A stretch of 64,000 nucleotides of DNA, taken from positions 770,971-834,970 of the forward strand of contig NZ_JBDOQT010000002.1 of assembly GCF_039839785.1 (NCBI RefSeq), given 5' to 3'. How positions within the stretch are numbered: the stretch's first letter is position 1; each line of letters starts with the position of its first letter. The notes under the pieces were generated by a model. It was not told the DNA's origin. It worked only from the letters and a program-made list of their open reading frames with translations, and did not search any database. Origin of the DNA: Pelagibius sp. CAU 1746 (GTDB lineage Bacteria > Pseudomonadota > Alphaproteobacteria > Kiloniellales > Kiloniellaceae). Position numbers and translations under genes: made by a program. This document shows positions 45,811 to 48,842 of this stretch, piece after piece.

Positions 45811-46527
45811 ATGACGGCCAACCAAAAGCTATCGGGCGGCACCGGCTACGCTCTTGAATGCATCGAGATCTTCCGCGATCTCGACCCGCGCGAGATCGAG
45901 CGTCTGACGCAGCGCGTGAACTGGCGCAACTACAAGGCCAGCCAGCAGATCATCGGCCACCAGGAAGCCTCGACGGACGTCTACTTCATGGTCTCCGGGA
46001 CCGTGCGGGTGATCCTCTTCTCCAGCGCCGGCAAGGAAGTGGCCTTCCGGGACATCCACGCCGGCGAGTGCTTCGGCGAGTTCGCGGCCATCGACGGCGC
46101 GCCGCGCTCGGCCAACGTCATCGCGCTGAGCGACGTCATGATCGGCTCGGTCTCGGCGGAGACCTTCCGCGCGATCCTGCAGGAGTTCCCGGCGGTCTCC
46201 ATGGCCATGCTGACCAACCTGATCGGCACGGTCCGCTCGCTGAGCGAGCGCATCTTCGAATTCTCGACCCTGGCGGTGAGGAACCGGATTCATTCCGAAC
46301 TGCTGCGCCTGGCCCGCGAGAGCGAACGCGACGGCAACACCGCGCGCATCTCTCCGGCGCCGACCCATGCCGATATCGCCAGCCGTATCTCGACGCACCG
46401 CGAGGCGGTCACCCGGGAGCTGAACGGCCTGACCAAGAGCGGACTGGTCAGCCGCGACGGCCGCACGCTGATCATCAGCGACATGAAAGAGCTGGAACGC
46501 CTGGTCCACGACGTGACCGGCGACTGA
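45811..46527 (+). CDS. Crp/Fnr-family transcriptional regulator, CRP-like
   Basis: 238 residues: N-terminal cNMP-binding domain (about 15-130) with GECFGEFAAIDGAPRSANV near 70-88, where the GE and RSA contacts of cAMP receptor protein are kept, a dimer helix (about 130-160) and a winged helix (about 165-230). The recognition helix has REAVTR, preserving the RExxxR residues of E. coli CRP, so TGTGA-type half sites are expected. Fnr-type Cys for Fe-S are missing. ATG 45811 chosen; GTG 45802 is possible. A CRP-like palindrome lies 158 bp past its stop. Confidence 0.85.
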   Translation: MTANQKLSGGTGYALECIEIFRDLDPREIERLTQRVNWRNYKASQQIIGHQEASTDVYFMVSGTVRVILFSSAGKEVAFRDIHAGECFGEFAAIDGAPRSANVIALSDVMIGSVSAETFRAILQEFPAVSMAMLTNLIGTVRSLSERIFEFSTLAVRNRIHSELLRLARESERDGNTARISPAPTHADIASRISTHREAVTRELNGLTKSGLVSRDGRTLIISDMKELERLVHDVTGD

Positions 46528-46565
46528 GCCGCCCCCCTGCCCTCAGCGACAGCCGTAAAAGAGGA

Positions 46566-46660
46566 AAGCCCCGTCCGATGGGCGGCGGACGGGGCTTGGG
46601 CTCACCTAGAAGGTCCGTCATCGCGGTTCGAGGGAGGACCTCCACGATGACGCGCCCAAG
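46566..46660 (+). ncRNA. Candidate structured RNA / terminator after crp-like gene
   Basis: Hairpin I: AAGCCCCGTCCG (46566-46577)/CGGACGGGGCTT (46586-46597), 12 perfect pairs with an 8-base loop. Hairpin II: CTTGGGC (46595-46601)/GCCCAAG (46654-46660) closing over CGTCATCG (46616-46623)/CGATGACG (46645-46652). The two share the bases CTT, so they partly exclude each other. No T-run follows hairpin I, so a simple terminator does not explain all of it. It could be the crp 3' end, an sRNA or a leader. Family not recognised. Confidence 0.4.
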
Positions 46661-46684
46661 ATAGCCGCCGGCGCGCCGCCGCTC

Positions 46685-46700
46685 TGTGGGTTTTGTCACA
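46685..46700. promoter_or_regulatory. CRP-type palindrome
   Basis: TGTGG-N6-TCACA differs from the CRP consensus TGTGA-N6-TCACA at one base, and C46684/G46701 extend the symmetry. It lies 158 bp after the crp-like stop and 212 bp before the LuxR start. The regulator next door retains the recognition-helix residues expected for this type of site. Confidence 0.5.
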
Positions 46701-46911
46701 GGCCGGCGCAACAACAAGGCGGGGCAAGCGAGAATCTCCGCGCAAACGGCGCCGCCGGGTCGGCCGCCTACCTCCTCGGTGGTACTATGCCTGTGCCAGG
46801 GAACGCGGAAGTGCAGCATGCTAGGCTTCTTCCAGCCAGGGTGCCGAAGGGGCCGCCAGCGGCCCGGACGCCCTGCCTTTAGATGTCATCCAAGGTTGGA
46901 GGTCAGTCCAG

Positions 46912-47652
46912 ATGAGCGATCCGCAAGCCCGAGATTCCGGAGAAGACAGCGCGCAACGGCTACGCCGCTGCGCCGTGGTGGCGGCCGGCATAGAACCCGG
47001 CCCGCTCCTGGAGGCCTTGCGCAGCGTGCCCAACACCCGGATCGGCGACATCTGCATCATCCCCTCCAACGGCCGGGGGGAACCGGAGGCCGACTACCTG
47101 ATCCTGGCCGCCAACGACGCCAGCCGCTTTCACAGCCTGGAGGACCAGATCGCACGCTGGTCGGGCCGCAGCACGCGGGTTCTTCTGGCGGTGCCTGAAT
47201 CGAAGTGCGCCATGCTGGGCGACCTGCCAGAGCGCGCCGACGGCCTGATCCTTCTGGACCGCGGCCTCAACTACCTGGAAGAAAGCCTGAAGCTGGCCGA
47301 GGACGGCTATTCCGTCATGCCCGCCGCCAGGGCCGGCAGCAGCGACGACGGCATCTGCAGGGAAATGCTGGGGCGCCTGAGCGATGGCGAGAAGGCCATC
47401 CTCGCCCTGCTGGCCGAGGGCGACAGCAACCGTAACATCGCCGAATCCCTGGGCGAGAGCGAGGCGCGGGTGAAATCCATGGTCCGCGCCATTCTGATCA
47501 AACTGGATTGCCGCAACCGGACCGAAGCGGCGGTGCTGGCCGCCACCGTCCTGCTGCCCCTGCTGGATTCTCTGGATCAGGACGATGCTGATGTCCAGGC
47601 CGGCGCGGCCAAGGGCAACGGCAAGGATCACGACGACGGCGTTTGGAACTAG
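46912..47652 (+). CDS. LuxR-type HTH regulator with degenerate N-terminal receiver
   Basis: 246 residues. The C-terminal HTH_LuxR (about 154-210; LSDGEKAILALLAEGDSNRNIAESL, RVKSMVRAILIKLDCRNRTEA) is clear. The first ~125 residues have the length and alternation of a receiver domain but no acidic pocket or phosphoacceptor Asp that I can place (CAVVAAGIEPGPLL at the start). Highly charged tail GNGKDHDDGVWN. ATG 46912 after AGGTTGGAGGTC. It converges with another LuxR-type gene at 47761. Confidence 0.75.
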   Translation: MSDPQARDSGEDSAQRLRRCAVVAAGIEPGPLLEALRSVPNTRIGDICIIPSNGRGEPEADYLILAANDASRFHSLEDQIARWSGRSTRVLLAVPESKCAMLGDLPERADGLILLDRGLNYLEESLKLAEDGYSVMPAARAGSSDDGICREMLGRLSDGEKAILALLAEGDSNRNIAESLGESEARVKSMVRAILIKLDCRNRTEAAVLAATVLLPLLDSLDQDDADVQAGAAKGNGKDHDDGVWN

Positions 47653-47760: not shown

Positions 47761-48483
47761 CTAGCCCATCATCTGCGACATCACCACTTCCTTGGCGGCC
47801 GGCGCGGCGACCGCGGCCCGGTCCGTCTTGCCGAAAGGCAGGCCGGGAGCCAAGCCGTGATTCAGCGCCCAGATCGCCGCCTGGGTGCGGTTGCCGGCCT
47901 TGATCTTGCGCAGCAGGCTCTTCATGTGAACCTTCACCGTGGCCTCGGTGATATCGAGGCGGTTGGCGATCACCTTGTTGGCGTCGCCGTTCACCAGGCA
48001 GCGCAGGATCTCCAGCTCGCGATCGGACAGGCCGTAGCTCTCGACGCCCTTGCCGCCCACCGGCTGCAGGCCTGCGGCGCCGTTGATCAGCGCTGCGGCC
48101 AAGTCGGTCGGCATGACCTTCTGGCCCAGCAGGGCCAGCTTCAGGGAGTGGATCAGCGCCTCCAACGAAATGTCTTTCAGCAGGAAAGCCGCGGCCCCGG
48201 CATTGAGGCAGCTCGCCAGGGTGCGCGGGTCCCGCTCGTCGGTCAGCACGACCACAGGCGTTTCGGGCAGGTCTTCGCGCAACTGGTGCAGGTCCTCGAC
48301 GACGCCGGAGAGATCGTCCCGCAGCTCGATCAGGACGAGACCCGCCGGCGCATCGGTTTCCTCGATCGCACCGACGCACAGCGCCTCGCCGCAGACGTTG
48401 AAGGAACTGCCGCGCAGCAGGCTTTTCAGCCCTTCCAGGAACAGCCGGTTTCGGCCGATCAGCAGTGTGTTTACCTCAGACAT
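47761..48483 (-). CDS. NarL/LuxR-family regulator with pseudo-receiver domain
   Basis: 240 residues: N-terminal receiver-like domain (1-120) and HTH_LuxR (about 148-210; LSDRELEILRCLVNGDANKVIANRL). The acidic pocket is replaced by Gly10-Arg11 (LLIGRNRLF) and the phosphoacceptor position is Glu53 (VLIELRDD) instead of Asp; Lys in FLLKDIS is kept. A Glu mimics phospho-Asp in some regulators, so it may be constitutively active or ligand-gated. ATG 48483, with a 359-bp gene-free gap upstream. Confidence 0.82.
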   Translation of the reverse strand: MSEVNTLLIGRNRLFLEGLKSLLRGSSFNVCGEALCVGAIEETDAPAGLVLIELRDDLSGVVEDLHQLREDLPETPVVVLTDERDPRTLASCLNAGAAAFLLKDISLEALIHSLKLALLGQKVMPTDLAAALINGAAGLQPVGGKGVESYGLSDRELEILRCLVNGDANKVIANRLDITEATVKVHMKSLLRKIKAGNRTQAAIWALNHGLAPGLPFGKTDRAAVAAPAAKEVVMSQMMG

Positions 48484-48842
48484 GATGCTTGCTCTCCCTT
48501 CCCCTTTTGCATTCCACCAACCCCGTGGTGTCAGCTTCCGACAGGCGGGATCTCGGGCAATCGCCCAGGGGGCGAAGGAATCCGCGTGTCGCTGATGGGA
48601 GAAAGTTACTCTGGCGCCGGGCGAGGGTCTGTGCGGATTACCACATAAGAGAGCGCTTCATCTTTTCGCATGCCGACCAAGGGTTTAGCTCGGTTTTCTT
48701 GGCAAAAAGGCGGCGATTTACCCGCAAAAGCCCTCGGAAAAAGGCGCCTGGCGCCCGATTTCCCGCGGCCTCCAGGCCCCAGTCCCACATCCGGCCATGC
48801 GCCGAAACCGCAGAGAGCCGGCCACCATGGCCGGCAAGGGTC
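48484..48842. other. Gene-free 359-bp gap between NicO stop and LuxR start, with a candidate terminator
   Basis: The gap holds the promoter of the 47761 gene and the end of the NicO operon. On the minus strand GGCGCCAGGCGCC (48743-48755) is followed directly by TTTTT (48738-48742), a candidate intrinsic terminator 87 bp past the NicO stop; the stem is short. No gene or other structured element was recognised. Confidence 0.4.
48738..48755 (-). terminator. Candidate intrinsic terminator after the NicO operon
   Basis: Minus-strand GGCGCCAGGCGCC folds as GGCG-CCAGG-CGCC, four GC pairs, and is followed by five T. Located 87 bp beyond the NicO stop codon. The weak stem keeps the confidence low. 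Confidence 0.4.

Follow-up and report, generated by a model that had tools for sequence, protein, structure and literature searches.

Which functional unit occupies the gap between a crp-like gene and a LuxR-type gene in the genome of Pelagibius sp. CAU 1746? The window, i.e., the whole 64,000-nucleotide stretch of DNA analyzed here, carries in this gap a 12-bp hairpin at 46566–46597 followed by a second long stem, and both structures, noted in a preliminary description of the DNA, are indeed present. That description offered an sRNA, a switching 3′ UTR of the crp-like gene or a leader of the LuxR-type gene as readings. Our analysis points most likely to a stand-alone sRNA gene on the minus strand, running from 46651 to about 46557, whose sequence has the anatomy of an activator-type promoter, an anti-Shine–Dalgarno (aSD) hairpin, a linker and a terminator.

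Strand and Anatomy of the Predicted sRNA Gene

The locus comprises the following features:

45811–46527, plus strand: crp-like gene (PF00027 and PF13545), convergent with the sRNA gene; likely encodes the sRNA activator
46556–46565, minus strand: T-rich, interrupted tail TCCTCTTTTA (terminator scan; poorer in some relatives)
46557–46651, minus strand: predicted sRNA gene, ~94 nt, with the start placed at 46651 and the 3′ end at ~46557 (conservation, terminator scan, fold)
46566–46597, minus strand: terminator hairpin, 12 bp, GC-rich (terminator scan, pairing-preserving changes)
46598–46616, minus strand: linker, with GGACCUU and GUGAGCC conserved in the alignment
46617–46626, minus strand: hairpin 1, 3′ strand CCGCGAUGAC (alignment, pair counts, fold)
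46627–46641, minus strand: hairpin 1 loop AGGUCCUCCCUCGAA, with the aSD-like UCCUCCCU at 46638–46631
46642–46651, minus strand: hairpin 1, 5′ strand GUCAUCGUGG (minimum-energy fold A, pair counts)
46658–46664, minus strand: −10-like element CTATCTT, at a constant distance from box and hairpin in 8/8 genomes
46685–46700, minus strand: predicted CRP-type operator TGTGACAAAACCCACA, first base at −49 in 8/8 genomes
46912–47652, plus strand: LuxR-type (GerE domain) gene, a divergent neighbor outside the sRNA unit

A terminator scan of positions 46400–47000 returned two terminator-like sites (shuffle mean 0.6), and the minus-strand hairpin followed by TCCTCTTTTA was called as a terminator. The earlier observation that no T-run follows the hairpin is correct for the plus strand; the tail lies behind the same hairpin on the minus strand. 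In some relatives the terminator tails are poor (TTTCTCATGC, TTTCGCTTGT), which counts against the sRNA-gene reading. Folding of positions 46556–46670, one of the checks proposed at the outset, came out better on the minus strand: the predicted energy there was −57.4 kcal/mol (z −4.02, equaled by 0 of 200 shuffles), compared with −52.1 kcal/mol on the plus strand (z −2.39, equaled by 2 of 200), so that the modeled folding favors the minus strand.

A coding function was rejected, since no reading frame on either strand stays open throughout the eight genus genomes; the RNA lengths are not multiples of three. At the sequence level the locus thus has what an aSD sRNA would show, its own promoter-like element and an intrinsic terminator without a conserved reading frame. 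No sigma-70 site emerged from the promoter scan of the locus, an outcome that an activator-dependent promoter would lead one to expect but that does not prove one.

Conservation and Distribution

A DNA search recovered the region in all seven other Pelagibius genomes (E 1.2e-51 to 1.2e-23) and as a single copy in the window's own genome, on which ground a repeat or paralogue reading was rejected. The covariance model matches the sRNA in 8/8 genus genomes. In the genus alignment, mean pairwise identity was 88% for the RNA, 60% for the promoter region and 29–31% for the flanks (L007, whose RNA equals that of L006, was omitted from the mean), and 71 of the 96 RNA alignment columns are invariant across the eight genomes.

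The crp-like gene is convergent with the sRNA in every one of these genomes. Within the eight-kb loci of the seven relatives it adjoins the sRNA each time, and a LuxR homologue does so in four of them; in the remaining three loci none occurs in the 1.4 to 6.1 kb available on the LuxR side. The conserved block is divergent from the LuxR-type gene, and the proposed leader function is therefore not borne out.

Scans of 61 genomes of the order and 385 of the class, run with strict filters and at most 67 or 10 candidates scored per genome, so that distant members may escape, found no convincing sRNA copy outside the genus. In the order, model R1 matched 5 of the 53 non-genus genomes (E 0.01–0.05), and CCTCC occurred in none of the eight segments inspected (the five non-genus matches and three extra same-genus ones). 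Four genomes besides the window's own matched at E ≤0.01 in the class; these were rejected as homologues, being terminator-only alignments without the aSD loop (a fifth locus, L058, was judged by alignment alone). Near a crp-like homologue elsewhere in the order, locus L080 (E 0.0038) combines a CUCCCCCC loop with a linker resembling that of the Pelagibius RNA, and a terminator follows. Its element shares the strand of its crp-like gene, lies 3′ of a small ORF and is given here as a lead only.

RNA Fold and the aSD Loop

Fold A, in which hairpin 1 and the terminator hairpin form side by side with a linker between them, is the minimum-energy fold of all eight sequences, and the loop AGGUCCUCCCUC is invariant. 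The first five bases of UCCUCCC are predicted to be unpaired with a probability of 0.79–1.0 in seven of the eight RNAs and of 0.52–0.79 in the window's own. The models thus predict a conserved, accessible C-rich seed complementary to the Shine–Dalgarno (SD) sequence; in the window's own RNA it is half-open, owing to a competing fold B, where the loop stretch AGGUCC (46641–46636) would pair with the linker stretch GGACCU (46616–46611), both invariant in 8/8 genomes. Forcing fold B takes 0.4 kcal/mol in the window's RNA (−46.5 versus −46.9) and 1.3–5.6 kcal/mol in the seven relatives; the idea of an alternative-fold switch was set aside, as only the source species has energies in its favor.

The two arms had originally been described as mutually exclusive, with three bases in common. 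The plus-strand minimum-energy fold does not show this, both arms forming together in it; a weak counterpart survives in the minus-strand AGGUCC/GGACCU helix, which has no covariation behind it.

Covariation in related genomes had been suggested as a check on the structure, and the RNA passes it weakly. The helices pair in 161/161 cells (seven distinct sequences), compared with 26–53% for slid structures. Changes on both sides affect a single pair (G-C replaced by A-U, in the terminator), and six pairs differ on one side; the terminator hairpin keeps its pairing through one two-sided and one one-sided change. Set against column shuffles, this is no excess (60 of 500 reach the observed level); the sequences are too alike for covariation to be tested strongly.

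Promoter Box and the crp-Like Regulator

In all eight genus genomes a TGTG-N8-CACA palindrome has its center at −41.5 relative to the inferred start. The start at 46651 follows from the placement of the −10-like element (CTATNTT/CTACCTT across the eight genomes, i.e., CTAT or CTAC plus NNN), and the palindrome start at −49 assumes that the last base of this element is −7. In L005 the palindrome is kept by changes in both halves (TGTGG...CCACA). Class II CRP sites center at −41.5. With the start so placed, all eight genomes carry a CRP-type palindrome near this position that overlaps the −35 region, the arrangement of a class II promoter.

The crp-like protein combines a cNMP-binding domain (Pfam PF00027) with a Crp-type helix-turn-helix (PF13545), and its counterparts beside the sRNA in the seven relatives are 82–95% identical. 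Its residues R-E-x3-R (PBC) and G-E...R-S (recognition) are named after E. coli CRP, an equivalence that we assume.

To relate box and regulator, loci across the order were compared. TGTG-N8-CACA was found at 10 of 22 crp-homologue loci versus 2 of 35 other loci (Fisher p 0.0006), the latter being a mixture of order, class and three same-genus loci. In terms of density this amounts to 12 boxes in 78,165 bp versus 2 in 104,255 bp, with permuted motifs giving 0–2. The box was present at 9 of the 12 homologues with an [ST]HREAV[TS]RE helix versus 1 of the 10 without it; the exceptions are L078, L079 and L084, which have the helix without an exact box, and L094, which has the box without the helix. 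Among the nine loci with both, the box lies 3′ of the gene in six and 5′ in four, one locus having both. That the box tracks the recognition helix supports, without proving, recognition of the box by the neighboring crp-like protein, which by the same token may bind and activate the sRNA promoter.

Similar boxes occur in other settings. At L074, L080, L076 and L081–L083, loci of crp-like homologues from other families, a short ORF that, read by eye, resembles a single membrane helix comes after a CRP-type or near-CRP-type box. Three genus genomes (L106, L109 and L110, around position 1501) retain the box TGTGACAATACCCACA, with no long ORF after it in the examined stretch and no Rfam match at these loci; it may perhaps mark a second CRP-type sRNA or a small-protein gene. 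The same type of box precedes a tetratricopeptide-like repeat protein (L115, L119, L125, L128), another shared ORF (L104, L124) and a LysE-like exporter (L112, L129) in several genus genomes, all named from translations, and the genes behind these boxes are candidate members of one CRP-type regulon. Within the window, a second TGTG-N8-CACA box, TGTGCGGATTACCACA, is located at 48630–48645, ~146 bp upstream of a NarL-like response-regulator gene (47761–48483, minus strand).

Candidate Targets

The hairpin 1 loop is complementary to GAGGGAGGA. The pattern GAGGGAGGA-N3-10-ATG occurs 80 times in the eight genomes versus 8 times for the reversed pattern, an excess to be expected in large part of any SD-like motif placed ahead of ATG. 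Two of the 80 matches are the sRNA's own complement and were left out; 67 of the other 78 gave products of at least 60 aa, which formed 49 non-redundant clusters. As controls served 20 of the 21 clusters behind AAAGGAGGA, L236 being left out. In a category picked after the list had been seen, transport proteins made up 15 of the 49 candidate clusters versus 1 of the 20 controls (one-sided p 0.018), and solute-binding proteins 11 of 49 versus 0 of 20 (one-sided p 0.016).

At E 1e-8, no Pfam transport domain was found in any of the own genome's nine candidates (own complement excluded), and the transporter idea consequently rests on the relatives. The most shared target candidate, a solute-binding-protein gene, is found in five of the eight genomes, the window's own not being among them. 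Repression of transporter genes in trans is perhaps one role of the sRNA, a weak suggestion given its post hoc origin.

Comparison with Known RNAs

At gathering thresholds, no Rfam family matched anywhere in the window. The best alphaproteobacterial look-alike is Caulobacter CC1840 (RF01521), whose whole model aligns and which has the loop stretch UCCCUCGAA in common with the Pelagibius RNA; membership was rejected at 18.7 bits versus a gathering threshold of 50 (E 3.1). RF01521 matched none of 98 relatives and did match the Caulobacter control. Sub-threshold overlaps with SNORA14 (L004) and the rnk leader (L008) at relatives' copies were taken as chance. Rfam, which presumably holds a CyaR family, gave no CyaR match at the sRNA locus up to E 10.

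CyaR (RyeE) would nonetheless be the nearest functional analogue: it is a CRP-dependent enterobacterial sRNA whose conserved seed pairs with the ompX SD, according to PMC11795201. No sequence relation was detected between the two RNAs, which belong to different bacterial classes. In Pelagibius the presumed activator gene is the immediate convergent neighbor of the sRNA, and the operator is predicted at −41.5.

Other aSD RNAs resemble it in part. Alpha-r8/MmgR (RF00519 suhB) and SisA-D combine an aSD core UUUCCUCCCU with a Rho-independent terminator, as set out in PMC12559287, and the Pelagibius loop has UCCUCCCU in common with them. In the alpha-r8 RNAs described there, a weak hairpin precedes the single-stranded core and an FGase gene is the usual neighbor, whereas the Pelagibius sRNA carries GGUCCUCCCUC in the loop of a strong 10-bp stem, not UUUCCUCCCU outside a strong stem, and is found beside a crp-like gene, not an FGase gene. 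RF00519 gave no match at the Pelagibius sRNA up to E 10. The own genome has a separate MmgR (RF00519, 51.7 bits against a gathering threshold of 41; L277:159-230, G000:C2), ~0.8 kb from an FGase gene, and TTTCCTCCCT sites occur 188–793 bases from an FGase gene in 8/8 genus genomes, at other loci than the sRNA. Alpha-r14/NfeR1 and the cuckoo (CcsR) RNAs likewise hold an aSD motif in unpaired hairpin regions, alpha-r14 having three hairpins each with CCUCCUCCC (PMC10746234), compared with a single aSD loop, CCUCCCUC, in the Pelagibius sRNA.

Proposed Mechanism and Alternative Readings

Taken together, we consider it reasonably probable that the locus is a ~94 nt minus-strand sRNA gene with a Rho-independent terminator, activated by a Crp/Fnr-family protein and repressing translation in trans through its aSD loop. 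The activator, most likely the convergent crp-like product, would bind the −41.5 box and switch on transcription in response to cAMP or another cyclic nucleotide. The RNA would then carry its C-rich aSD loop, GUCCUCCCUC, at the tip of a stable stem; this loop, possibly assisted by Hfq, would pair with SD regions reading GAGGGAGGA, most likely blocking translation of the mRNAs concerned. The sRNA proposed in the preliminary description is in this respect upheld by promoter-like and terminator-like ends, with the gene moved to the opposite strand.

The same gene might be activated by another Crp/Fnr-type protein, its linkage to the crp-like gene being historical; we hold this unlikely, while giving it some weight. 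Each of the eight genus genomes encodes 14–24 first-look Crp/Fnr-like candidates, any of which might bind, and TGTGRN5CCCACA is found at other genus loci (29 matches versus 11 for its reversal, each palindrome counting twice). In the own genome the sRNA locus is the only site of the stricter pattern TGTGRNNNNNCCCACA, whose reversed control also turns up once. Linkage to the crp-like gene in 8/8 genomes and a box whose presence follows the helix of the homologue group speak against such a substitution. A bolder elaboration, which we regard as speculative and rather doubtful, is a two-state switch within a genus-specific, co-inherited activator–sRNA module: fold A would expose the aSD loop and fold B hide it, and the exchange could be gated by a partner RNA, by temperature or by Hfq. 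Such a module may stem from a locus where relatives keep the same CRP-type box by the crp-like gene and put other units, such as small membrane-protein ORFs, behind it.

Two readings that change the function appear improbable to us. The RNA might act mainly on other RNAs or proteins, as a sponge for SD-bearing or G/A-rich RNA or as the partner of a second sRNA, in the way that CrfA sponges the aSD sRNAs SisA-D in Caulobacter; pairing of this kind is described for an aSD 10-mer (PMC12559287). At a slightly lower level still we place a protein-free 3′-end structure of the crp-like mRNA on the plus strand, terminator-like or stabilizing and perhaps switching. A long stable hairpin 39 bp past the crp-like stop codon and the plus-strand fold are consistent with it, but that strand offers no T-run, a conserved promoter-like block lies on the far side and is oriented to the minus strand, and conservation falls on the aSD loop and on the −41.5 box instead of the crp-proximal side. 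The conserved block runs from promoter to terminator on the minus strand, convergent to the crp-like gene, which also leaves the switching 3′ UTR unsupported. Chance structure in a repeat, a mobile fragment or decaying sequence could account for the weak covariation and for little else; a single copy in the own genome and a largely invariant alignment at the same locus in eight genomes make it very hard to credit.

Together, our results most likely describe a new genus-level sRNA whose kind is known but which matches no catalogued family and is adjoined by an unusually clear candidate activator. A literature search on Pelagibius and small RNA returned nothing. For this genus of marine alphaproteobacteria, the predicted sRNA carries a built-in hypothesis on its activator, its active bases and the rule for its targets. 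If true, the wiring of CRP to an aSD sRNA known from CyaR would have been reached separately in another class, with regulator and RNA adjoining, and the correlation of operator and helix would allow the regulon of the crp-like group to be read straight from genomes.
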